Assembly (NCBI RefSeq): GCF_000784355.1
Contig: NZ_KN360928.1
Coordinates: 253,820 to 317,819 of the forward strand
Direction of reading: 5' to 3'
Length of the DNA stretch: 64,000 nt
Source: Methanolacinia paynteri
Lineage (GTDB): Archaea; Halobacteriota; Methanomicrobia; Methanomicrobiales; Methanomicrobiaceae
The translations under genes and the position numbers were made by a program. Below, piece by piece: positions 4,917-27,724 of this stretch (the stretch's first letter is position 1; each line of letters starts with the position of its first letter). Under the pieces are notes generated by a model. That model was not told the DNA's origin and did not search any database. It saw nothing but the letters and a program-made list of their open reading frames with translations.

Positions 4917-5155
4917 CAGGCAGCCCCCGCAGTCCTGAAAGATAAACACCCAATCTTTTTCATTAATTTCTTAAGAACTCCCCCCTCATGCCATCCGGCG
5001 GCTCTTTTCGATCCCCATGATGTGAGGGCCGTATTTGGAGACCGGTTTACGATATTGCCGGAATGAATAAAAATAGAAATAGCAGCCACTATCAACAGAA
5101 TCGCCACCAGCACTGCAACGTGGATCCTGTAGTCTTTAGTAGCCCTGTGTGACAT
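4916..5155 (-). CDS. Small single-pass membrane protein coupled to the kinase
   Basis: A 79-residue protein: a short basic N terminus, one strong membrane helix (VAVLVAILLIVAAISIFI, about 14-31), and a basic tail of about 45 residues. The stop codon overlaps the kinase start as ATGA. The start at ATG 5155 is chosen because TGAGGG lies about 11 nt upstream; an upstream in-frame start at 5188 would add 11 residues. No family recognised. Its coupling suggests an accessory or sensory partner of the downstream kinase; this is inference from position only. Confidence 0.55.
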   Translation of the reverse strand: MSHRATKDYRIHVAVLVAILLIVAAISIFIHSGNIVNRSPNTALTSWGSKRAAGWHEGGVLKKLMKKIGCLSFRTAGAA

Positions 5156-5763: not shown

Positions 5764-7410
5764 TCACTTCTTCTTATCCCGGTACAGGACTTTTATAAGC
5801 GTTGCAAGGCCCAGGACGAAGGCGATCAGGTAGATTATAACCGTAAGGGCTATGAGATAATCGGAATATTCAAAGTCTGCTGAGAACATCACAATAGATG
5901 CTCCTATAACGAGTGCCGAGGATACGAGTCCCATAAGGATCTTGTCAGACGCTCTCTCTATCGTGCTGCTCAGGTTCTCGACATCCTTTGCAACTATATC
6001 AACCTGAATATTTCCCTTTGCCATCCTGTCGAGTGTCCTGTTGATAATCTTCGGAAGCTTCATTATGCTCTCTGCACTCTCCAAAAGCGTGTGGGAGGTC
6101 TTTTGGAAGCTCGACCTTGAAAGATACCTTGCCTCCAGGATCTCCCTCAGGTAAGGTCTGGCCTCGCCATAGAAGTTGAACTTCGGGTTCAGCTCCGTTC
6201 CAATTGAAAGCACCATTACGATTACCTTCAGCAACGACATCAGGGTTCCCGGGATCTGGATCTTGTATAAGTTCATGATCCTCGGAATCGATTCGAGAGC
6301 AGAACCCGCATCAACGCTTTCAAGCTCGATGCCTTCGACATCGAAGAGGGCATAATAGAGCTGGTCCTTTATATCGTCCTCATTATCCTCGGTAATATTA
6401 ACGCCGAGCTTCTGGAAGGTCTCGACTATCAGGTTGACATCGGTATCTACGATCGCCAGAAGGAGTTTAATAAACAGATCCCGCCTCTCAGGCCTGATTA
6501 TCGCAATAGCCCCCAGGTCAAGGAATGCTAGCTCACCCGAGGGAGTTACCTTCAGGTTTCCGGGGTGCGGATCGAGATGGAAGAATCCGTCCTCGAAGAT
6601 CATCTTAAGGTATGCCGTGAAACCGAGAGAGGCAAAATCAGTCGGGTCATAACCCATAAACCTGATCCCATCCACATCGTCGACCCTTATACCGTCGATG
6701 AATTCCATCATCAGGCATTCGGGGCCGGAATATTTCCAGAAGATCTTAGGAAACTTTATTCTTTCCCTGCCGGCAAAATTACGCCGGAATATATCGGCGT
6801 TTTTTCCTTCGGATACAAAATTCAGCTCCTTTTTGATCATCTTCGAGAAATCGTCGACCATTGCTGAGAGGTTGTAGGCCCTGACTGCAGGATTGACCCG
6901 TTCATACCTCTTGGCCATACTTTCGATTATCAGGGTGTCGGTCTCTATCGTCTCTCTAATATTGGGGCGCTGCACCTTTACAGCGACAATTGTCCCGTCC
7001 TTGAGAATGCCACGATGCACCTGGCCAATCGAAGCCGCGGCAAGAGGCGTCTCATCAAAAAATTCAAATGTCTCGTCAATAGGTCCGCAGTACCTCTCAA
7101 TTGTCGGCCGGAGCTCTTCAAACGGAACCGGACCGACATGGTCGTGAAGCTTCTTGAACTCCCTTACAAGCTCAGGAGGAAGGGATTCGGTTCTCGATGC
7201 AAGCATCTGGCCGAATTTTACAAATGTTGGGCCAAGTTCCTCGAGGGCGAGACGCATTCTCTCGTATACCGACCTTTCATCCGGCTTTGTCTTCTTATCA
7301 AAGAATTTTCGCTTTGTGGCGTCGGGATCGATCTCATCCAAAAATATTCCGAAGCCATATTTGATCCCGACGTCGACAATCTGGCCGTACCTTCTAAGAC
7401 GGGTAACCAT
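5764..7410 (-). CDS. AarF/ABC1/UbiB-family atypical kinase
   Basis: A 548-residue member of the ABC1/UbiB family of protein-kinase-like ATPases associated with membrane lipids. Visible landmarks are the KxGQ motif (FVKFGQMLASR, Lys65), the Ala-rich nucleotide loop (AAASIGQVHRG, about 124-134), the lysine in VAVKVQRP (145), the catalytic HLDPHPGN segment and the LDLGA metal motif. Two C-terminal hydrophobic helices (about 490-545) anchor it in the membrane. Bacterial relatives support ubiquinone synthesis; methanogens lack ubiquinone, so the substrate here is unknown, possibly an isoprenoid lipid. Monocistronic. Confidence 0.9.
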   Translation of the reverse strand: MVTRLRRYGQIVDVGIKYGFGIFLDEIDPDATKRKFFDKKTKPDERSVYERMRLALEELGPTFVKFGQMLASRTESLPPELVREFKKLHDHVGPVPFEELRPTIERYCGPIDETFEFFDETPLAAASIGQVHRGILKDGTIVAVKVQRPNIRETIETDTLIIESMAKRYERVNPAVRAYNLSAMVDDFSKMIKKELNFVSEGKNADIFRRNFAGRERIKFPKIFWKYSGPECLMMEFIDGIRVDDVDGIRFMGYDPTDFASLGFTAYLKMIFEDGFFHLDPHPGNLKVTPSGELAFLDLGAIAIIRPERRDLFIKLLLAIVDTDVNLIVETFQKLGVNITEDNEDDIKDQLYYALFDVEGIELESVDAGSALESIPRIMNLYKIQIPGTLMSLLKVIVMVLSIGTELNPKFNFYGEARPYLREILEARYLSRSSFQKTSHTLLESAESIMKLPKIINRTLDRMAKGNIQVDIVAKDVENLSSTIERASDKILMGLVSSALVIGASIVMFSADFEYSDYLIALTVIIYLIAFVLGLATLIKVLYRDKKK

Positions 7411-7506
7411 GAATGAATTAACGAATTAATAATACAAAAATTATACGTAAATGATATGGTATTTTCAGAAAAAATAAGCTTATTTTTTATTTTTCAGGGA
7501 ATATTT

Positions 7507-8529
7507 TTATCTGCGCCGGAAACTTCTGACGGCCGTACCGATTAAGAGCGCCGAAAATATCGAAACGACGGCAAGAACCGGTGAAACGGGTGATTGTGTC
7601 GCTGTCGCCGCAGTGGTTGTCTCCACCGTCATCTTTGTCCCCGTAGGTCCGGCCGATTCCTGTGAAGTCGGCTTCGCGGTGATTTCCGGTGTTTCGACAG
7701 GTTCGTAAAGGGTGATGTATTTCTGGAGTGCATTTCCTTCAGATACCGCTTCTATCGTAAAGATATATGTTCCCGGCTCCATTCCCGCTGTATCGATATC
7801 TACGCTCCAAAGGTTATACGGCATGCCGTATTCGACAGTACTCTTTCCTGCCATCTCCGTGGTATATGCAGCCCCCCCGGACTGCTTGGATGAAGGTATA
7901 TCCCCGGAAACAGGTGAAAACGTATACACCAGCTGCTCTCCCTGAGCGATGTTTGTCGTTCCTTCAAGTTCGATTATCGATCCAGCCTGCCAGGCTTCAG
8001 TTTCATCTGCCCTTAACCAGGGCTCTTCGAGGAAGAAGGTCGTTACCGTATATGTATCGTCGATATTCTGCGAATCCAGCAGATTCATAAGGGCATAAGC
8101 CGCTGCCGAACCCTGCAGCTTTCCCTGTCCTTCGATTACGAAGCTGCCTCCCGCAGTCGAAACCGCGCTTGTCTGGCCCGATGAAGGCCAGCTTTCCCTG
8201 ACTGTTACATCGAATACACCGTTGTACATCGGGTGCTGTATAATCACAAAGTACTGTCCTGAAGACAGGGAGCCTGTCAACCCGCTGCCTATCTCGTAGG
8301 TATATGAACCGTCGGATTCCGTATTTACATTCTCTGAAGACCAGTAGTTCTGACCGAATATCCAGGCCATAAGGCCCGTCGACTGTGAACCCGGCGCTTC
8401 ACCCCTTATATATACCGGGTCACCGGAGGCGTAGAATTTCATATCGTCGCCCGACGCCGCAAGGGCAAATCCCGGAACCGCCAATAGCAATATTATAATT
8501 CCTGCCGGAAGAATGGCTGAAGCTCTCAT
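7507..8529 (-). CDS. DUF3821-type secreted surface protein
   Basis: A 340-residue exported protein with a signal peptide (ILPAGIIILLLAVPGFALA), a body typical of the Methanomicrobiales DUF3821 family (YASGDPVYIRGEAPG near the start; GQYFVIIQHPMYNGVFDV about 90), a Thr/Pro-rich stalk (about 285-315) and a C-terminal membrane helix followed by RSFRRR. The layout is that of a membrane-anchored envelope protein. Function is unknown. Monocistronic. Confidence 0.8.
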   Translation of the reverse strand: MRASAILPAGIIILLLAVPGFALAASGDDMKFYASGDPVYIRGEAPGSQSTGLMAWIFGQNYWSSENVNTESDGSYTYEIGSGLTGSLSSGQYFVIIQHPMYNGVFDVTVRESWPSSGQTSAVSTAGGSFVIEGQGKLQGSAAAYALMNLLDSQNIDDTYTVTTFFLEEPWLRADETEAWQAGSIIELEGTTNIAQGEQLVYTFSPVSGDIPSSKQSGGAAYTTEMAGKSTVEYGMPYNLWSVDIDTAGMEPGTYIFTIEAVSEGNALQKYITLYEPVETPEITAKPTSQESAGPTGTKMTVETTTAATATQSPVSPVLAVVSIFSALLIGTAVRSFRRR

Positions 8530-8601: not shown

Positions 8602-10308
8602 TCATGAAATGTTTTGAGACGCGGACGATACTATTGCAGTAATCTCTCCTTCTGGGCTTTTTATTATAGAATTATGCCATAATACGGGTATTTCCCCGCC
8701 ACCGGATGTAATAATGACGCCTTCCTCGCTCTGGGGGGGGCTGATCTCCCCCGCAATAATTCTCGAATACTGTTTTCTCAGGTGATCCCTTCTCCCGGCA
8801 GGAATGACTGTTTCGAACCAGTTTTTTCCGATTATCTGGTCTTCAGTGACCCCAAGCATCCTGCACCCGTAGCGGTTGATGCGGGTCAGGCGGCCCTGCC
8901 TGTCAACTACGGCAATCATGACACCAGCGAGATCAAGGTAGCTCTGTGCCTGGTCCCTCTGTGCAATAATCTCCTCTTCAGCCCTTTTGTCTTCTGTAAT
9001 ATCCTCAAGGAGGGTCAGGATATAATCCAGTCTGTTGTCCATCCCGAAGATCGGAACTTTGCGGGATTTGATTATCCTCTCGTTTTTGCCCGAAATCTTC
9101 AGCCTCAGTTCTGACATTGATACGGGTGCACCCGTGGATGAAACCTCCCTGTCCCCCGAAATGAGGTACTCCACGAACTTGTCGGGAAAGAGCTCCCACC
9201 CCATCTTTCCTGTGGCAGAAGCACTATTTATACCGAAGAACTCCTCGGTCTCCCTGTTGAAGAAGATATAAGTGCCTTTCTTTACCTCTTTTACAAGAAC
9301 CATCGCAGGAATATTCATGACGACCGAATTCAGGAAGGATTTCCATTTGAAGAGCCCGCGGTATGCCTTTTCCCGCTCTGTCACATCTCTTGATACGAGC
9401 CTGTAGCCTGTTCCGATTCCGAACTCATCATACCGCCTGCAGAGGCTTGATTCGAGTATGATTTTGTGGCCGTTGCTGTGCATTACCGAGCAATTGAAAA
9501 TTTCCGGACCGCCGCCATTATTTCGGCATTCACGGATGCATCTGTCGAGGGCCGACTTCCCCTCTTCGTTAAGGATCTCGTAAATTGGTTTATCTATAAG
9601 CTCCGAAGGCTGGAATCCGAGTATTTCCGTAGTCCTGGGGCTTACATATGTGAACCTTGCGTTGTCATCAAGATCCCATATCGCATCGTTGATCTCCTCA
9701 ACAAGCGACCTGTAATTCCTTTCACTCGAGATTAACGCTTCTTCAGCTTTTTTTCTCTTCGTGATATCCTCAAGCGTGAGGGTCACACCGGGAGTGGAAT
9801 CGTTTAAAACAGTCGGAATCAGTCGGATTTTGAAGTACTTCTCCTCGTCCACTTTCATAATCCGTATCTCGTCGGTGCTCTCCTTTCCTTCAAGCGCGGC
9901 CATGATCCTCTCGTTTATCACCGGGTGATCGAAGCCTACAAGAGGCGAGTTCCTGAGCTCTTTTCCGATTATATCCTCTCTTTTTATGTCAAGGAATTCG
10001 CAAAACGAATCGTTTACCTGGGCAACGGCCAGATCCCTGTCTATTACCGCGACCATATCGGAGGAGAAGTTGATCATGGCCGAAATCGGAGCACGCTGGG
10101 ATATAAAGAACACCTTTGCCTTCCCGTATGTCTTCATATCAACCTGGCCCGATATCCGGAGCATGTCGAGGTATCTTGAAACGGTATTCCTGTTTACCGA
10201 TATCTGCGCGGCAATATCGGTAACGGAAAGCCCACGGGGATTCTCCTTTAGAATTTCAATGACTCTTGATAATTCTTCAGCGTAGGAATCCATATCTACC
10301 ATTATCAT
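8602..10308 (-). CDS. Winged-helix/PAS one-component sensor regulator
   Basis: A 568-residue soluble protein. An N-terminal helix-turn-helix (about 10-70; GLSVTDIAAQISVNRNTVSRYLDMLR) is followed by about four PAS/PAC domains (about 75-190, 195-320, 325-440, 450-565), each closed by an I-T-[KE]-x-K/R-A-E-E linker. There is no kinase domain, so it would couple small-molecule or redox sensing directly to DNA binding. The start is uncertain: ATG codons at 10308, 10302 and 10293 are all in frame and none has a clear ribosome site. Confidence 0.82.
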   Translation of the reverse strand: MIMVDMDSYAEELSRVIEILKENPRGLSVTDIAAQISVNRNTVSRYLDMLRISGQVDMKTYGKAKVFFISQRAPISAMINFSSDMVAVIDRDLAVAQVNDSFCEFLDIKREDIIGKELRNSPLVGFDHPVINERIMAALEGKESTDEIRIMKVDEEKYFKIRLIPTVLNDSTPGVTLTLEDITKRKKAEEALISSERNYRSLVEEINDAIWDLDDNARFTYVSPRTTEILGFQPSELIDKPIYEILNEEGKSALDRCIRECRNNGGGPEIFNCSVMHSNGHKIILESSLCRRYDEFGIGTGYRLVSRDVTEREKAYRGLFKWKSFLNSVVMNIPAMVLVKEVKKGTYIFFNRETEEFFGINSASATGKMGWELFPDKFVEYLISGDREVSSTGAPVSMSELRLKISGKNERIIKSRKVPIFGMDNRLDYILTLLEDITEDKRAEEEIIAQRDQAQSYLDLAGVMIAVVDRQGRLTRINRYGCRMLGVTEDQIIGKNWFETVIPAGRRDHLRKQYSRIIAGEISPPQSEEGVIITSGGGEIPVLWHNSIIKSPEGEITAIVSSASQNIS

Positions 10309-13149: not shown

Positions 13150-15585
13150 TTATTTTTTCCCAGCTGAAGAAGAGGGATCAGGACTTTTTTTTGGATCTTC
13201 GGTATTATCGCTGGCAGCTTCATCTTCTTCCTGTGGCCTGACACCTTTAAGAAGTTCGATATAGGCATCATTGTTTTTATCCTTTAACGGAAATTCGCAG
13301 AAGAGTTCCATCTGCTGGATGGTTGTTATACTGACTTCATTGAGATATTTATACATTTTTTCAATCTTCTGCCAGTCGTCTGGTGTTCCGGTATTTATCA
13401 GGTCAGCCTGTTTCTGAGACTTTTTAATCTCGCCGAGCAGATAGCTGCTCAATCCATGATGAGTGTGAATCCAGTTGTAGTATGCAATCAGCCACTGTGA
13501 ATAATCGATTCTGTTCTTCTGGATTTTTCCAGGGGCAGTAGTAATTGAGGTTGCAACAAGCGCAGTGCCACCTACTGCACTAAGGGCACCAATAAAGATG
13601 TCTCCCAAACCAAAAAAGGGGAGAAATACCGCCAGAAACAAGAGGAATACGCCCAGTGCAAATTGGACATAAAATAATGTAGATACATGATCCAAACTGG
13701 ATTCCATCTTTTTGCTTAATTTAGACAGATTATTCTGGGTTCCTTCAACTGCATTAGTAATACCCTCAAGCAGTTTCTTCTGGCACTTGAGCTCCTCTAT
13801 CATGAGCTCTTTTCTTGCCTTAGAAGATCCCAAGCCGGTATATGCAGATGCACAGGACTTATCGATTCTAAGTGCTGTATTAAAAGAATTGTCCGCTTCC
13901 TCAAAACGGTCGAGCATCATCAGCGCATTGCCTTTTTGTGCATGTAATTCCGGATTTGATGGATCAATTGAAATTGCGATATTAAATGACTCCAAAGCAT
14001 TCTGATACCTGTTTTCATCGGGACAGTTCTCCCATTCCATAAGAAGAATCCCTTTGCTGTAAAAGGCTTTCCAGTAATTTTTTTCTTGATCTGCTGCCTT
14101 TTCAAAGCATTTAAGAGCCTCAGTATACTTTTTTTGATTAAACAAAGCACGACCTTTGTTATTTAAAGCATTTAACTTCTTTCCCTGGAGAGTCTTTTTA
14201 ATTTCAGGATTTCCTATAAAATAATTATTAATTTCTATAATGTATTTTTCGTCAGAACATTCTTCTTTATCTTTTTCATTCTGTTGCTCTTTATCTGAAT
14301 TTTCCTGAAAACAGTCAATAACCACATTAAAACATTTTAATGCAGCATTATCGCGCCCCTGTCTGCTAAAAGAAACCCCTTTGCTGACCAGTGAGTCCAG
14401 ATAATATCTTACGCCATCCTCTTTTTTTCCAGAACTCTCTTTTATATTTTTTTCAGTAACCTGAAGAGCTTTATCAAAGCATTTTATTGCTTCAGCATCA
14501 TCTCCAAGACGGCTGAATGAAACTCCCATCCTGACTAATCCTTTCGGATCGTCATTCATTATTTCAAGAGCTCTTTTAATGTCATATATGGCATCGGCAT
14601 ATTTCAACAGCTCAATTAAAACATTCCCTTTCTCAATATAGATTTGATATTTTTGTTTTTCTTTTTCTTTTTCGTTTTGATTGACCTTTTCTATAGCTTC
14701 CAAAGCCCTATTTAAGGCCTGAAGAGAGAGCCCGTAATATTTAAGCTGTTTTGCTGAATTTCCTTTGTTTATATATGCCCATACATTATAAGGATCGATC
14801 CTGATGACCTCATCAAAACATTCTATTGATTCTTCGTAACGCTTTAATTTCCTTAAGGAGATTCCCTTGCTAATATATGCTTTCTTATTAGCTTCCTGAT
14901 TACAAGGATCAAAACTGAGGACTTTATCAAAGCATTTTATTGCAGCATCGTCATCATTATTTTTACTCAAATAAATGCCTTTTTTATAATATGCTTCTTT
15001 ATTATCAGAATCAAGACGAATAATTTCATCAAAACATTTTATAGCTTCTTTAAATTTTCCAAGTTTAGCTAAGGAGATGCCTTTACTATAATATGCATCC
15101 ATATTATCACGATCAAGACCTATAACATCATCAAAACATTCTATAGCTTCTTTATATTTTCCAAGTTTAGCTAAGGAGATGCCTTTACTATAATATGCAT
15201 CCATATTATCACGATCAAGACCTATAACCTCATCAAAACATTCTATAGCTTCAGCCTCGCGATTTAGAACGCTTAAAGTGATTCCCTTCTTCCTTAGTAC
15301 ATCATTAAATTTAGGATTATCTTTTGAAATATGCTCTAAATATAAATTGAAATAAACTAATTCTTCCTCATAGTTTTTCAATTTATAGCAAAGATAACAA
15401 ATATCATCCAGGGCCTGAATATTACCTTTATCCAGTTCAAGAATTTTCTCTAATGTTTTCTTTGCTTCAGAATAGTTTTTAGCCAAATATTGATCTTTTT
15501 CCTCTTCGAAGAGTTCATCTATTAGATTTTGATCAGATTCAGTTTTAAGAGATCCTTCAGGATTTTTTTCAGACATTCCATTCAC
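13150..15585 (-). CDS. Large TPR-repeat membrane protein
   Basis: An 811-residue protein made of about twelve or more tetratricopeptide repeats (about 30-600; typical units K-G-I-S-L-A-K-L-G-K-Y-K-E-A-I-E-C-F-D), a coiled region (about 600-645), two membrane helices (about 650-700) and a charged cytosolic C terminus. The TPR array is probably a protein-docking platform facing the cytosol. Codon use is clearly AT-richer than in neighbours, which suggests transfer or rapid evolution. Two adjacent repeats are nearly identical at DNA level. GTG 15585 is taken as start (GGGAT upstream; TATA box near 15615); ATG 15576 is the alternative. Confidence 0.8.
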   Translation of the reverse strand: MNGMSEKNPEGSLKTESDQNLIDELFEEEKDQYLAKNYSEAKKTLEKILELDKGNIQALDDICYLCYKLKNYEEELVYFNLYLEHISKDNPKFNDVLRKKGITLSVLNREAEAIECFDEVIGLDRDNMDAYYSKGISLAKLGKYKEAIECFDDVIGLDRDNMDAYYSKGISLAKLGKFKEAIKCFDEIIRLDSDNKEAYYKKGIYLSKNNDDDAAIKCFDKVLSFDPCNQEANKKAYISKGISLRKLKRYEESIECFDEVIRIDPYNVWAYINKGNSAKQLKYYGLSLQALNRALEAIEKVNQNEKEKEKQKYQIYIEKGNVLIELLKYADAIYDIKRALEIMNDDPKGLVRMGVSFSRLGDDAEAIKCFDKALQVTEKNIKESSGKKEDGVRYYLDSLVSKGVSFSRQGRDNAALKCFNVVIDCFQENSDKEQQNEKDKEECSDEKYIIEINNYFIGNPEIKKTLQGKKLNALNNKGRALFNQKKYTEALKCFEKAADQEKNYWKAFYSKGILLMEWENCPDENRYQNALESFNIAISIDPSNPELHAQKGNALMMLDRFEEADNSFNTALRIDKSCASAYTGLGSSKARKELMIEELKCQKKLLEGITNAVEGTQNNLSKLSKKMESSLDHVSTLFYVQFALGVFLLFLAVFLPFFGLGDIFIGALSAVGGTALVATSITTAPGKIQKNRIDYSQWLIAYYNWIHTHHGLSSYLLGEIKKSQKQADLINTGTPDDWQKIEKMYKYLNEVSITTIQQMELFCEFPLKDKNNDAYIELLKGVRPQEEDEAASDNTEDPKKSPDPSSSAGKK
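15055..15258 (-). repeat. 102-bp tandem duplication inside the TPR gene
   Basis: Two consecutive 102-bp units (34 codons, exactly one TPR) are almost identical: GCCTTTACTATAATATGC recurs at 15079 and 15181, and identity runs on both sides with only isolated mismatches (for example ATAACATCATC versus ATAACCTCATC). Such near identity within an otherwise divergent repeat array indicates a recent unit duplication. Confidence 0.9.
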
Positions 15586-15609
15586 ATCAAGATCCCATAA
15601 TAACTAAAG

Positions 15610-15622
15610 TAATATATATAAC
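15610..15622 (-). promoter_or_regulatory. TATA-box promoter of the TPR gene
   Basis: On the minus strand AGTTATATATATTAC lies about 25-30 bases before the proposed GTG start (15585), giving a transcript start very close to the start codon. Confidence 0.45.
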
Positions 15623-15671
15623 TTACTCAATTTGGCTGATTGCTAAATAACAAGAGAAGATCCATAATATC

Positions 15672-15678
15672 AAAAAAA
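15672..15678 (-). terminator. T-run terminator after the modA-like gene
   Basis: Seven consecutive T on the minus strand, 12 bases after the stop of the substrate-binding gene, preceded by AT-rich sequence; the usual form of an archaeal terminator. Confidence 0.5.
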
Positions 15679-15689
15679 TTGAATTTGGT

Positions 15690-16514
15690 TTAGGCCTTCA
15701 CATCGGCAGACTTGTCAGCCGGATAGGTGCTAAATCCATAGTCCTCAAAGACTGAAAGACCCTTCTCGGATGAAACGTATTCGACGAACTCTTCGGCCTC
15801 GTCAGGACTCGCCGAGAATGTCATAACGCCGATCGGGACAATCTTCACGATGTTCTGATTGTTCGGTATGTATATGATCTCAAGGTCGTCCGAATCACCA
15901 AGATCCTCCCATATTATCGAGCCGTCGACAGTTCCGAGAGATGTCTGCAGCACGATCTCGTTCACTGTTGCCGCACGTGTCACCACATTCGGGTAGATCG
16001 TTTGATTCAGGCCGTTTTTCTCAATTATCTTGTTGGATAACTTTCCAATTGCGCATGCAGACGCATCACCGAGCTCGACTTTAACTCCCTCGTTTCCGAG
16101 ATCTGCAAGGCAGGTGATTCCCGCAGGGTTGCCTTTCGGCACTGCAATAACCGGGACATGATACACTACGAGTTTCTCGGTATCGTTGACAATGAACCCC
16201 TTGCTCATCGCGGTGTTGAAATCTGCCGTCGATCCGGGCATGTATACGTCACCTTTTTCGGTAAGCTCCATCTGCGAGAGAAGAGTTCCCGATCCGCCAA
16301 AGTTATAGTTGACTACAATACCTGTCTCTGTAGTGAACCGTGATGCGATCTCTTCCATCGGTTCGCTCATTCCTGCTCCGCAGTAGACCAGAATCTCACT
16401 GGTATTTCCGGCCTGACCGGATGCACTGCCGTTATCCCCCTGGCCTGTACATCCTGAAAAGACAGCAAACAAAACCAGAAGGATGAAAGAAATGATAAAA
16501 ATCTGTTTCTTCAT
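15690..16514 (-). CDS. modA: ModA-like substrate-binding lipoprotein
   Basis: A 274-residue extracytoplasmic binding protein of the molybdate/tungstate ModA type. The N terminus is a lipoprotein signal with Cys22 after A-V-F-S-G, followed by a Gly/Ser/Asn linker. The mature part opens with E-I-L-V-Y-C-G-A-G-M-S-E-P and contains the oxyanion-site-like F-G-G-S-G-T-L and K-V-E-L-G-D-A-S-A. Tungstate or molybdate is needed for formylmethanofuran dehydrogenase, so uptake of either is plausible. No permease or ATPase gene is adjacent, which is unusual. The gene symbol reflects family only. Confidence 0.75.
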   Translation of the reverse strand: MKKQIFIISFILLVLFAVFSGCTGQGDNGSASGQAGNTSEILVYCGAGMSEPMEEIASRFTTETGIVVNYNFGGSGTLLSQMELTEKGDVYMPGSTADFNTAMSKGFIVNDTEKLVVYHVPVIAVPKGNPAGITCLADLGNEGVKVELGDASACAIGKLSNKIIEKNGLNQTIYPNVVTRAATVNEIVLQTSLGTVDGSIIWEDLGDSDDLEIIYIPNNQNIVKIVPIGVMTFSASPDEAEEFVEYVSSEKGLSVFEDYGFSTYPADKSADVKA

Positions 16515-24381: not shown

Positions 24382-24553
24382 CTTTCTGCCTGTTGCCCTA
24401 ATATTTAGGTTGCCTGATTCTGGATTCTTTGAAGTGAGATTTAGGGTAAGATTTGTGATGAGCCTATGCAATGGGGCCGTTATATATCAATTTGGCCTAC
24501 GAACCATTCGAGAGTGACTTTCTCCACATCAGATCCAATGAATCTATAGTGGC

Positions 24554-25837
24554 TCACTGATTCTTCAGACCTTGGAATATGAAGTAATACTCTTTTCCGG
24601 ACATCTGCTTATGGAGGTATCCTGATCTTTCAAGATGGAAGAGATCTTTTCTCGCCGTTCCATATGCGATGTGATATGTCTCCATTATCTCCTTGATTGT
24701 TACTGGTTTGTCCGGGTCTTTTATAAGCGACTTAATTATATCGGCTTGACGAAGATTCAGACCATCGCTTTCCTGGAGAATTTTTAACGCCTGTTTGTTT
24801 TCTTTTTGTTTTTTCTCGATATATTTCTGGATATTGTCAACTGCAGTCTTCACTGCCGAAAGATTGTACCTGATAAAATATGTTAGATCGTTTTCGTCAC
24901 TTTCGGTATATTGGTAGGCCATCTTGTACTGACCTGTCGTATCCTTTATCGCCCTTGATACAGCCATATATTCGAATAGCCAGTAGTCTTTCCTGAGCAT
25001 GTACCAGTAAAAGATGCTTCTTGCACACCGACCGTTACCATCATTGAATGGGTGAATATAACCCATGAGATAATGGAGAATGATCCCCTTTATCACAGGG
25101 TGGATGAACTGTCCCTCATCGTTGTTTGCAAATTCACAGAATTTTCCAATAAGTTCTTCTACTTTTTTAAAATCGGGAGGGGTATGCAGGACGTTTCCGC
25201 TCTGGTCAAATACCCTTATCTCGTTATTGTCCCTGAAGCGGCCTTCGTCTTCCGGGTTATCGAGAGTATTTCGGGTAATGCTTGCATGAATATGCAATAT
25301 CAAATCAGGCGTCAATTCCCGGTTCTTTATCGTAGTGATCTCCTTCATAGTGAGATAGTTATTCAGAATCATCCGCTCATCCTTATTGACGGGCTTTCTC
25401 TTCTCACGGAGCATCTGTTTTGCTATCTTTCTCGTGACTGCAGCTCCCTCGATCTGGCTTGATGCGATTGCTTCCTCCATCAGGGAATTGATGATGAATT
25501 TGTCCCTGTCACGAGACATAGAGTCAAGCCCGGACGAGATGCTTCCCGCAGCAGATTTGTCGAGATAATGGAGTTTTTCGAGGAAATCATCAAGAAGATT
25601 GTATTTCAGTCTGAGTTCATCGAAAAAGAGATACTTCATCTCCCTGTTCCTGAAGATCTTCATCAGTATCCAGACATAGAGTGGATCTACGGGGAGTTCT
25701 CGGTACTTTAGTTCCTCCCAGTGGAGATATTTATTATTGTACCTGAAGACCGCATCCATGATTTCATAATTTTCAGCATATTCCCATGCCTTTTTGGCAT
25801 CATCTTCGGAATACTCAGGGATCCGTGGGAGCTTCAT
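24554..25837 (-). CDS. Fic-domain AMP-transferase-like protein with winged-helix tail
   Basis: A 427-residue Fic protein. The catalytic motif HPFNDGNGRCAR is complete at 262-273, so AMP transfer to a target hydroxyl is expected. An inhibitory-helix motif, S-x3-E-G (Ser126, Glu130, Gly131), lies N-terminal, as in class II Fic proteins that restrain themselves. The last 70 residues form a winged-helix (LNLRQADIIKSLIKDP ... YGTARKDLFHLERSGYL), suggesting autoregulation or DNA contact. Gene is AT-richer than the chromosome. A 29-bp palindromic site lies 39 bp upstream of its ATG. Target is unknown. Confidence 0.9.
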   Translation of the reverse strand: MKLPRIPEYSEDDAKKAWEYAENYEIMDAVFRYNNKYLHWEELKYRELPVDPLYVWILMKIFRNREMKYLFFDELRLKYNLLDDFLEKLHYLDKSAAGSISSGLDSMSRDRDKFIINSLMEEAIASSQIEGAAVTRKIAKQMLREKRKPVNKDERMILNNYLTMKEITTIKNRELTPDLILHIHASITRNTLDNPEDEGRFRDNNEIRVFDQSGNVLHTPPDFKKVEELIGKFCEFANNDEGQFIHPVIKGIILHYLMGYIHPFNDGNGRCARSIFYWYMLRKDYWLFEYMAVSRAIKDTTGQYKMAYQYTESDENDLTYFIRYNLSAVKTAVDNIQKYIEKKQKENKQALKILQESDGLNLRQADIIKSLIKDPDKPVTIKEIMETYHIAYGTARKDLFHLERSGYLHKQMSGKEYYFIFQGLKNQ

Positions 25838-25875
25838 GACTAATTTTCTATATCTGCCTGATCCTTATTATCATT

Positions 25876-25904
25876 ATCTATCATTTTGTTACATTTTGAT
25901 AGAT
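25876..25904. promoter_or_regulatory. 29-bp palindromic site, copy 1 (upstream of fic)
   Basis: The outer arms are ATCTATCA and TGATAGAT around a core TTTTGTTACATTT. It is identical to copy 2 (27214-27242) at 27 of 29 positions and sits in the fic promoter region, so it is a candidate operator. Confidence 0.55.
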
Positions 25905-25951
25905 TTTGTAAACGAGATTCAGGCGGTGAGGAAAATGTAGGGTTCTATATT

Positions 25952-26944
25952 TTATTGAGTTAAATCATCTAATGAACTCTTAATTGAATTAGCTAATTTT
26001 TCAATAATTGGAATTAAGCTTTTAATATCCTCTAAAGTAACTGTAATTTTATGTCCTATCATCGATGGGGGAACACCTGTTTTTTTGACATAATCTTTAT
26101 CGATAATACCCATTTTATGAGCTAAAAGGTGGCGTTTTTGGAAGCAGATCTCTGCATTATTCCATTCATCATCAGATAGATTCTGGGTTATATCAATACC
26201 AAAATAATCGTTTATATTGTCTCTTACAGAATTCAAATTTTGAAAATGTATTCTCCAGACTTTTTCAGGAGACGAGGATTTTTCTGCATTAATTTTACAA
26301 ATTTCACGACCAAATCCATCAAATGCTGAAATACAATCTTCTAAAGCATTCTCTACTAATTTTTCTTTTAAAGAGTCCTCTACTGAGTTTGCTAATTCAA
26401 CCATTTTTTCTGCAATTTCAAGATTTTTCTGGAGGATTTGTATAGAATTATGTTGACCACAATCAGGACAGAAAGCAAAAAGCCCATAGACACTGTATTT
26501 TAATGTACATTCCGGGCATTCTATAAAAGTTTCAAGCTCTCTTTCTCTGTAATGGTGTATTGGATAAGGCTTTCCAGGTTCAACCTTTAAACTTAAACCA
26601 ATACCAAAAGATTCTTTTGATTTATTGTCAAATTCAAGAGATTTGAGATCTTTCACTAATGCGTCTGTAAATTCTCTGATAACTTTTGAAGTTGCAAATT
26701 CTATTTGATCCTTTGTAAAGAATTCACTTTGATCACCACTATAGCCGCAATAAGGACAATAACATTTTGCAGTCCCCTTTAAACCTGTTCCAAGAACAAT
26801 TTTGAAATATCCTTCACATTCAGGATTTGGGCATTCCCTCCCAATGTATCCTTTTTCATCAGGATGCAGTTCTATTTCAAAGGAATTTCCAAGTCTTTCA
26901 ATATGAGTCATAATCATCTTGATGTATTTTTCTTTATTGCTCAT
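25952..26944 (-). CDS. Zinc-ribbon protein with HEPN-like C-terminal domain
   Basis: A 330-residue soluble protein. The N-terminal part has paired cysteines of two zinc ribbons (C-P-N-P-E-C with C-Y-C-P-Y-C, about 38-62; C-P-E-C with C-P-D-C, about 138-157). The C-terminal 140 residues are all-helical and carry KRHLLAH, an R-x4-H motif of HEPN ribonuclease domains, set between helices as in that fold. Related HEPN domains act in defence and toxin-antitoxin systems; activity here is inference. Very AT-rich, suggesting transfer. It follows fic on the same strand after 110 bp of AT-rich DNA; note fic lies downstream of it. Confidence 0.6.
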   Translation of the reverse strand: MSNKEKYIKMIMTHIERLGNSFEIELHPDEKGYIGRECPNPECEGYFKIVLGTGLKGTAKCYCPYCGYSGDQSEFFTKDQIEFATSKVIREFTDALVKDLKSLEFDNKSKESFGIGLSLKVEPGKPYPIHHYRERELETFIECPECTLKYSVYGLFAFCPDCGQHNSIQILQKNLEIAEKMVELANSVEDSLKEKLVENALEDCISAFDGFGREICKINAEKSSSPEKVWRIHFQNLNSVRDNINDYFGIDITQNLSDDEWNNAEICFQKRHLLAHKMGIIDKDYVKKTGVPPSMIGHKITVTLEDIKSLIPIIEKLANSIKSSLDDLTQ

Positions 26945-27316
26945 ACGATGCCAAATAATAAATAAATTCGTTCAATTATCTCTTGAATTAAAAATATCTT
27001 CTCCTCTATAAAGGAGAACATTCATTCATGCAGTGAAACTTTGATCTCCACGGATTTCTGCAAGGGTTTGTGACTTGCGTATGTTATTTTCAAAAACCTT
27101 GTTGATAGGTCATACTGTAAATTCAATGTTCTTGTTTATATAGCAAGGAGAGGCAAAATAGACTCAGATTTAAAGAAATTATCCATATTAATGGCCAAAA
27201 AGAATCTATCAATATCTATCAATTTATTACATTTTGATAGATAATGTGAAAATAAAAACCCGATCAAGTTTCTGCATCAAATACTAATTTAGTAAAAAAT
27301 AGTATTTCATTAGTAT
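26945..27316. other. 372-bp AT-rich gap with palindromic site
   Basis: No gene is supported in this gap. It holds a possible minus-strand TATA box (complement of 27133-27142, CTATATAAAC) upstream of the HEPN-like gene, and the second 29-bp palindrome with an extra half-site. The rest is low-complexity AT-rich DNA. Confidence 0.6.
27204..27242. promoter_or_regulatory. 29-bp palindromic site, copy 2, with extra half-site
   Basis: Copy 2 at 27214-27242 has the same ATCTATCA and TGATAGAT arms as copy 1; ATCTATCAAT is repeated once more just before it (27204-27213). It lies 270 bp upstream of the HEPN-like gene and just downstream of the hemerythrin gene. Confidence 0.55.
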
Positions 27317-27724
27317 TTACAAAAGGCCGTGGTCTTTGAAGCATCCGGTGTAATTCTTGTCCGTTCCCTTGATATGGCCTGCGACCCATCCGCTCAAAAA
27401 CTTCATGACGTCGATCGAAAGGCCGAGTTTTCCCGAAGAAAAAGCGTTTTGGAAGTCCGCAACTTTTCCCACGAATGCGTCATGCTCTTCCCTGTGCTTT
27501 TCGAAGTCAGGGTAACCGAATTTCTCCATGTACTTCTCCTCGGTCTTGAAGTGGTACTGGGTGTAGTCTGCAAGCTCGCCGAGTGTTTTCTCCAGGGTAT
27601 CCTTTCCCTGCCCGGACCTCATTCCGTCGTGGAGTGCGTTTATCTGCGATACGAGTTTCTTGTGCTGTTCGTCGATCTCCTTAATTCCGACAGAGAGATT
27701 CTCTGACCATTCCATATATGCCAT
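27317..27724 (-). CDS. Bacteriohemerythrin-like O2-binding protein
   Basis: A 135-residue four-helix protein with all di-iron ligands of hemerythrin: His21, His58, Glu62, His77, His81, His117 and Asp122 (EQHKKL, HFKTEE, H-R-E-E-H, GHIKGTD). It would bind O2 reversibly in the cytosol, for sensing, delivery or protection in a strict anaerobe. Monocistronic; the ATG at 27724 opens MAYMEWSENLSVGI, the common start of the family. Confidence 0.94.
   Translation of the reverse strand: MAYMEWSENLSVGIKEIDEQHKKLVSQINALHDGMRSGQGKDTLEKTLGELADYTQYHFKTEEKYMEKFGYPDFEKHREEHDAFVGKVADFQNAFSSGKLGLSIDVMKFLSGWVAGHIKGTDKNYTGCFKDHGLL

Follow-up and report, generated by a model that had tools for sequence, protein, structure and literature searches.

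The window analysed here, a 64,000-nt stretch of the archaeon Methanolacinia paynteri (G000:C29:253820-317819; genome of 2.79 Mb in 46 contigs), carries fic, which encodes a class II Fic protein with a C-terminal winged helix, next to a gene for a protein with two zinc ribbons and a HEPN-like domain (hereafter the HEPN gene), and two near-identical 29-bp palindromes flank the latter gene. Comparison with 232 genomes of the class indicates that two sister clades of such Fic proteins each have their own operator type, the palindromes of the window being of the type belonging to the clade of the window Fic. Taken as a whole, the locus is rather likely to represent a Fic that represses its own gene and whose operator has been duplicated, the two copies bordering a slot for exchangeable effectors.

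On the minus strand, the elements follow each other in the order of transcription as the hemerythrin gene, a type II palindrome, site 2, the HEPN gene, site 1, and fic. Site 1 (25876-25904, ATCTATCATTTTGTTACATTTTGATAGAT) ends 38 bp before the fic ATG and site 2 (27214-27242, ATCTATCAATTTATTACATTTTGATAGAT) ends about 270 bp before the ATG of the HEPN gene. The two sites, designated as type I operators, are identical at 27 of 29 positions, and each has perfect 8-bp arms and 22 of 29 self-complementary positions. Exact matches to the arm pattern ATCTATCA-N13-TGATAGAT occurred nowhere else in the 2.79-Mb genome; two more places found with 2 mismatches look like chance, the reversed-pattern control likewise giving one per strand. 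Within the window, three matches were obtained at up to 3 mismatches (both exact sites plus one overlapping site 2) versus 0.59 expected, a number reached by 2 of 100 shuffles. Between the two intergenic regions, the best-matching 29-mers agreed at 27/29 versus a maximum of 22 in 25 Markov shuffles. Site 1 is embedded in a longer stretch (25859-25912) with an outer TTATCATT half-site on the fic side and TTTGTAAA on the other side, which is kept in G111, a close relative of the same genus. Beside site 2 there is an extra half-site ATCTATCA on the plus strand (27204-27211), 10 bp from site 2 and with 8 of 10 bases kept in G111, and further upstream lies a type II operator (27279-27307, AAATACTAATTTAGTAAAAAATAGTATTT) of the TACTAA-N11-TTAGTA kind with one mismatch. 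This is the single site of its kind in the window genome at no more than one mismatch, and a type II operator adjoins a type I operator in G111 and in G112, a more distant member of the genus, as well. Between site 2 and the HEPN gene, a TATA-like TATATAA (27136-27142, minus strand) is a candidate promoter by motif match, and no small gene was evident there in a three-frame translation of the minus strand.

An earlier reading of the letters (the original prediction) had described the near-identical palindromes and placed one upstream of each gene, with random genome-wide recurrence as the outcome that would speak against them. The palindromes were recovered at the same positions and did not recur at random; the placement was borne out for site 1, whereas site 2 does not directly precede the HEPN gene. 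The type II palindrome, which is of the operator type of a sister Fic clade, had been overlooked.

The product of fic (24554-25837, minus strand) is 427 amino acids long. Its catalytic motif HPFNDGNGR, starting at residue 262, fits HPFx[D/E]GNGR within a PF02661 match (E 1.4e-17), and the inhibitory motif SSQIEG, starting at residue 126, lies N-terminal to the Fic motif and therefore assigns the protein to class II, with the inhibitory helix defined as (S/T)xxxE(G/N) in the available portion of PMC9755527. An HTH_DeoR match covers residues 363-414. These features agree with the original prediction of a Fic enzyme with catalytic and inhibitory motifs and a winged-helix tail. By its motifs, the protein is thus a member of the class II Fic/FIDO AMPylase family, with AMP transfer as its predicted activity. 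The best PADLOC model was SoFic (8.3e-47), and PDB 3eqx, a structure of SoFic type, was deposited as a Fic-domain transcriptional regulator; the window Fic differs in scoring 68.2 bits against the SoFic equivalog (NCBIfam NF046030), below the curated cut-off of 550, and in being associated with clade-specific operators in archaeal genomes.

Exact type I sites numbered 37, spread over 32 of the 232 genomes; the reversed pattern gave none. With a looser pattern (two mismatches, TGT fixed), sites were present in 47 genomes, again with zero reversed matches, and a scoring matrix applied over the fetched loci gave true sites 35-46 bits versus 21 or less for the background. Fifteen of the 37 exact sites are located 38-58 bp before the start of an intact fic. 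One precedes a fic truncated at a contig end (G058), one a fic with an internal stop (G210) and three leftover C-terminal fic pieces (G050, G052, and G095), two are near other or tiny fic pieces (G084 and G187), two are second sites 119 bp from the fic-proximal site (G053 and G058), and another two, window site 2 and site 1 of G111, belong to the locus under study. Therefore, there are strong grounds in this tally to regard the type I element as the promoter-operator of fic, apparently persisting as a relic where the gene itself has disappeared.

Several solo type I sites without an intact fic (L049, L052, L058, L059, L061-L063, and L075) were observed in genus g19 and in one genome of another family, G122; several copies have tens of bases of flanking sequence in common on both sides, and these operators may be either fic-promoter relics or a dispersed element. 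In G120 (L092), two type I operators (5001-5029 and 8665-8693) are separated by 3.7 kb in the absence of a clade I fic, and between them lie an unknown 332-amino acid gene, a 316-amino acid gene, and a gene of a PD-(D/E)XK transposase family. A viral origin of the operator was considered and rejected: when 2.9 million viral contigs were scanned for ATCTATCANNNTGT...TGATAGAT, the result was 5 contigs with only about two distinct sequences, which were taken as chance. None of the five matched Fic or any other query gene, and in the viral locus for which open reading frames were listed (L174) the site overlaps a coding frame.

The clade of the window Fic (clade I) comprised 17 loci sharing 51% to 100% identity and having the type I operator, while the sister clade (clade II, 42% to 47% identity) had the operator TACTAA-N11-TTAGTA, often in tandem copies 55-79 bp apart. 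The 58 Fic loci compared were all 17 full-length matches at or above 50.9% identity and 41 of lower identity, the latter being part of those found. The window Fic contains the motif HIAYGTARKDL in the winged helix, a stretch which we take, from winged-helix anatomy in general, to be the recognition helix. All 16 loci with AY[GA]TAR in this helix had type I operators (15 type I only, one both types), all 35 with VY[QE]TAR had type II operators (34 type II only, one both), and six of the seven loci with remaining helices had neither. When operator labels were placed on a Fic tree computed from residues 1-335, which exclude the winged helix, 7 changes were counted versus 20.7 with shuffled labels, and none of 200 shuffles was as low; such shuffles ask only about clustering, much of which is accounted for by shared descent. 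Except for L110, the other clade I loci have a site 1-like operator in the same position before fic. In L110 (helix IANATAR, inside clade I) and in L154 (ARESAR, inside clade II), the operator and the helix motif are both gone. Because of these joint losses and the published case of CccR, binding by Fic is the best reading of the palindrome, and Fic itself very probably binds the type I element, as had been suggested in the original prediction. In a third Fic clade (helix SLPTAR; L037 and L038), a ATGTCAGGTAGACCTGACAT-like palindrome was observed about 20 bp ahead of the first Met in the fic frame, which may represent an operator code of a third type.

CccR of Yersinia pseudotuberculosis, the closest precedent, is a class II Fic protein with a C-terminal HTH; it uses an inverted repeat to repress its own promoter and needs to dimerise, according to the available text of PMC9755527. 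The window Fic likewise has a C-terminal HTH and an inverted repeat, site 1, in the fic promoter. The CccR half-site ATGATAATCT agrees in 8 of 10 letters with ATGATAATAA, which flanks site 1 on the fic side, a likeness to be taken as a lead only (PMC9755527, in the part available). The outer half-site beside site 1 (25859-25875), read as ATGATAAT in the fic direction, was also seen to resemble ATGATAATCT. CccR is described in that part of the paper as a bacterial secreted effector with a 46-bp operator and a 26-bp spacer (PMC9755527), whereas the window system is archaeal and has a 29-bp palindrome with longer conserved flanks, a duplicated operator, and an exchangeable effector gene between the copies. 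Autorepression of fic through site 1 is, on this sequence evidence, highly likely.

The slot between the two operators was compared with the close relatives. G111 is a complete genome in which the flanking DNA is 89% to 94% identical to that of the window and the same neighbours occur in the same order. Both type I operators are at the same place, the second with one arm mismatch, but the HEPN gene is replaced by a gene for a 272-amino acid protein. The exchanged interval (25913-27203 in the window, 8038-9110 in L091 of G111) ends at the operators or within about 10 bp of them, and both inserts have a guanine-plus-cytosine (GC) content of 32%. The two slot genes have the same orientation and start 230-270 bp from site 2. 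Between G000 and G111, site 1 is conserved at 28 of 29 positions, site 2 at 26 of 29, and the type II stretch at 43 of 44, whereas the spacer that separates site 2 from the type II site (36 nt versus 25 nt) has 18 matches over 38 aligned columns. In G112, the type II and type I operators are followed directly by fic with no insert, and the fic-proximal operator has the same sequence as site 2 of the window. The simplest reading of these alignments would be that the two-operator slot was present before G000 and G111 diverged, with site 2 being under constraint once the slot existed. The fic gene of G111 appears to have been lost near an 8-bp repeat, TCTGCCTG, which the window has at 24385 and 25853. 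Attribution of the operators to the hemerythrin gene (27317-27724, minus strand) or its terminator was rejected; G112 has the same operator pair with a different upstream gene.

The HEPN gene (25952-26944, minus strand) encodes 330 amino acids. Its zinc-ribbon cysteines (C38/C43/C63/C66 and C143/C146/C159/C162), together with R271 and H276 of the R271-HLLA-H276 motif, which fits R-x4-6-H, were invariant in an alignment of 10 homologues (A1) that excludes L006, L015, and L016 with broken, incomplete, or frameshifted copies; the two zinc ribbons and the R-x4-H domain had been read in the same way in the original prediction. The C-terminal domain was predicted with a predicted local distance difference test score (pLDDT) mostly above 80, and in a structural comparison HEPN proteins made up almost all of the first 18 rows (Z 5-7.2), including YutE, HI0074, and Csm6, which contain HEPN domains. 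The best match had Z 7.2 with a root-mean-square deviation (rmsd) of 4.0 over 128 aligned residues, and Foldseek gave no match to the model at E 0.001. A HEPN fold is thus likely for the modelled domain, and by family analogy the protein may be an RNase. Searches of Pfam, NCBIfam, and PDB sequences returned nothing for this protein and that of PHROGs two weak matches only, and PADLOC model PDC-M14A (PDLC04447) matched residues 21-165, the zinc-ribbon part (E 1.7e-16).

The nearest homologues found were bacterial (45% to 56% identity), and many of them are part of type I restriction-modification (R-M) operons. Eight of the 12 genome loci with a homologue have a match to Hsd proteins (L005, L006, L007, L008, L010, L012, L013, and L014); L009 has another methylase gene adjoining the homologue, and L011, L015, and L016 have no Hsd match. 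The homologue lies between hsdS and hsdR in L005 and L012, and in L005 alone of the 12 loci its R-M operon also includes a different kind of Fic (24% in the match). Residence in R-M operons as a general rule was rejected, as the 3 plasmid homologues inspected out of 16 found (24% to 36% identity) lie outside annotated R-M operons. No Hsd match occurs in the window, and the window genome has an HSDR_N piece on another contig, C1. The GC content is 31.8% for the HEPN gene, 42.1% for fic, and 48.0% for the window. Because of this low GC content, its occurrence as the sole full-length copy among the 232 genomes, the homologues in R-M operons, and the PDC-M14A match, the HEPN gene is judged from its sequence to be transferred DNA of defence type, in line with the origin first proposed for it.

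The 272-amino acid slot protein of G111 had no Pfam or PADLOC match. Two N-terminal helices were predicted, which are hydrophobic by eye, and the model (pLDDT 68) matched the SAVED-CHAT protein 8tl0 (Foldseek E 7.5e-4; Z 9.8, rmsd 3.4, 151 aligned), followed by caspases at Z 7-8. FGHG and C207 in the QFHC region were invariant in 8 aligned homologues (A2), these being 8 of 10 fetched CHAT homologues, with L122 and L123 dropped as no full open reading frame was recovered. On the basis of the model, the product is a predicted membrane-anchored CHAT/caspase-fold protease. It resembles defence proteases of this kind (PDB 8tl0 SAVED-CHAT and 7zoq) in its predicted fold, with its FGHG and the Cys of the QFHC region, and differs from them in having N-terminal hydrophobic helices, not SAVED or TPR.

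In the mechanism proposed for the window, the C-terminal winged helix of Fic, probably as a dimer, would bind ATCTATCA-N13-TGATAGAT beside its own start codon, and bound Fic would hold fic transcription low. The operator would have been duplicated at the locus, with a foreign AT-rich effector gene coming to lie between the copies, namely a predicted HEPN-type RNase in the window genome and a predicted membrane-anchored CHAT/caspase-fold protease in the closest relative. Site 2, beside the sister-type operator, would most likely put the effector under the same repressor, and upon relief of repression Fic and effector would rise together. For control of the HEPN gene by site 2 in particular, the chances are about even. 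A role of Fic as a sensor is speculation.

Several observations weigh against this reading. The distance from site 2 to the HEPN ATG is accompanied by one of about 70 bp from site 2 down to the nearest TATA-like box, and therefore simple promoter occlusion is not obvious. Only three genomes of the genus were available, and the case for exchange is therefore built on two slots that hold a gene and one locus lacking an insert. No fic was detected in G111 by the Fic search although both operators persist there, and no clade II Fic that would explain the type II site was found in the window genome or in G111. Across the class, 11 of the 37 exact sites had no detectable fic piece within 700 bp, and therefore a perfect operator is no proof of present function; the exact-match search itself favours intact sites. 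The agreement of helix and operator is partly due to common descent with few independent changes, and L136 combines a type II match with another helix. Finally, a full-length HEPN gene was not found in any other of the 232 genomes, G107 having a short partial match at 38%. A conserved Fic-HEPN two-gene module, as originally envisaged, has thus to be given up, since the pair did not co-occur elsewhere in the class, an outcome named in the original prediction itself as refuting, and a CHAT-fold gene lies between the same operators in G111.

Site 2 and the type II site might instead be the old fic promoter, downstream of which a mobile gene landed while fic kept or regained site 1; Fic would then control only itself and the HEPN gene would have its own promoter. 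This is a serious possibility, if a somewhat doubtful one. It is consistent with the identity of site 2 to the fic-proximal operator of G112, with the type II site on the same side at a similar distance, with the 270 bp and the intervening TATA-like box before the HEPN ATG, and with the common occurrence of solo operators without fic in other genomes. However, G000 and G111 both keep site 2 and the extra half-site though the neighbouring spacer has diverged, and in both the slot is occupied by a gene in the same orientation at a similar distance from site 2. Mainly because site 2 was kept while the spacer diverged, a service of site 2 to the slot gene is preferred over that of a mere old fic promoter.

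It is improbable that the palindromes are primarily recombination or insertion sites (att-like or of short homology) for cargo exchange, with regulation being secondary. The exchanged segment does have its borders no more than about 10 bp from site 1 on one side and at the extra half-site beside site 2 on the other, and both inserts look foreign at 32% GC, but the distance to the fic start is fixed across many genomes, the half-site changes by clade together with the recognition helix, and no recombinase gene was seen beside the sites in the window. The sharp borders may merely reflect operators being the sole conserved part of diverged intergenic DNA.

Slightly less credible still is a separately encoded regulator that binds the palindrome and controls both fic and the HEPN gene. 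Operators persisting where no clade I Fic was found, such as in G111, G047, and G071, and a divergent gene for a winged helix-turn-helix (wHTH)-nucleotidyltransferase beside fic in the g19 locus tested, L112, would fit such a regulator; the latter gene is not beside fic in the window or in G112, however, and only the Fic winged helix was found to track the operator type. In the R-x4-H-x-Y motif, the Tyr is the residue modified by the nucleotidyltransferase MntA. That Fic AMPylates and silences the HEPN RNase in a toxin-antitoxin pair, as MntA does with HepT, is very improbable: HEPN toxins silenced by AMPylation are known (PMC7641770, as far as the available text goes) and a solved AMPylated HEPN toxin tops the structural list, but position +2 after H276 is Met, not Tyr, the Fic-HEPN pair is not conserved, and G111 has another slot gene and no fic.

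Operator and Fic repeatedly recur beside restriction, HEPN, or CHAT genes, and many loci have no such gene. The sister-clade fic stands directly before hsdR within type I R-M operons in 4 of the 58 loci (L126, L131, L132, and L155); hsdR fragments follow fic in L124, L136, L144, and the clade I locus L108 (1.7 kb downstream), giving 8 of 58 loci in all with a downstream hsdR or hsdR fragment. In G191, hsdR follows a type I operator that lacks a fic. In G194 (L124, 5361-8461), genes for a CHAT-like membrane protein, a TPR-HEPN_LA2681 protein, and a UPF0175-type protein are located upstream of the operators and a clade II fic, a cluster that looks like a defence operon; the CHAT-like gene matches the G111 gene at 37%. 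In L112 of genus g19, a wHTH-nucleotidyltransferase gene (7360-8079; HVO_A0114 and NTP_transf_2) was observed divergent to fic, followed by a DUF2115 gene. Elsewhere in the window, an AT-rich stretch (14001-16000; 33% to 36% GC) contains 102-bp tandem repeats.

Parallels exist among known defence systems. RptR represses a type I R-M/DarTG2 island and, in the portion of PMC12255303 available, is a small repressor that acts at a palindromic site to keep an R-M island with an embedded toxin system low. It is a small dedicated regulator as described there, whereas the repressor in the window would be a Fic enzyme with an operator pair outside an R-M operon. HEPN genes occur in R-M operons, and PrrC/RloC are often accompanied by RhuM-like or Fic/Doc-like toxin genes, as stated in the accessible text of PMC3710099. 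The window HEPN protein differs in having no ABC ATPase, in its two N-terminal zinc ribbons, and in lying outside any R-M operon. In the open-access literature searched, no paper was found that deals with operator codes of archaeal Fic proteins, with control of hsdR by Fic, or with the exchange of effectors flanked by operators.

Class II proteins make up about 80% of all Fic proteins and are of almost unknown function, in the words of the available part of PMC9755527. The clade-specific operator code gives the archaeal class II Fic proteins a testable role as repressors and physically links them to defence effectors, namely HEPN proteins, CHAT proteases, and type I HsdR. Tentatively, and with considerable doubt, Fic may be the repressor and possibly the sensor of a small immune regulon in an operator-delimited slot, with a HEPN RNase, a CHAT protease, or HsdR being interchangeable beside or between operators and with each Fic clade using its own operator code, such that Fic leaving the DNA during an infection would both arm the effector and increase the AMPylase. 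If site 2 works, the locus would be a compact repressor-enzyme with an exchangeable weapon, and the operators would be usable as tags for finding new archaeal effectors.

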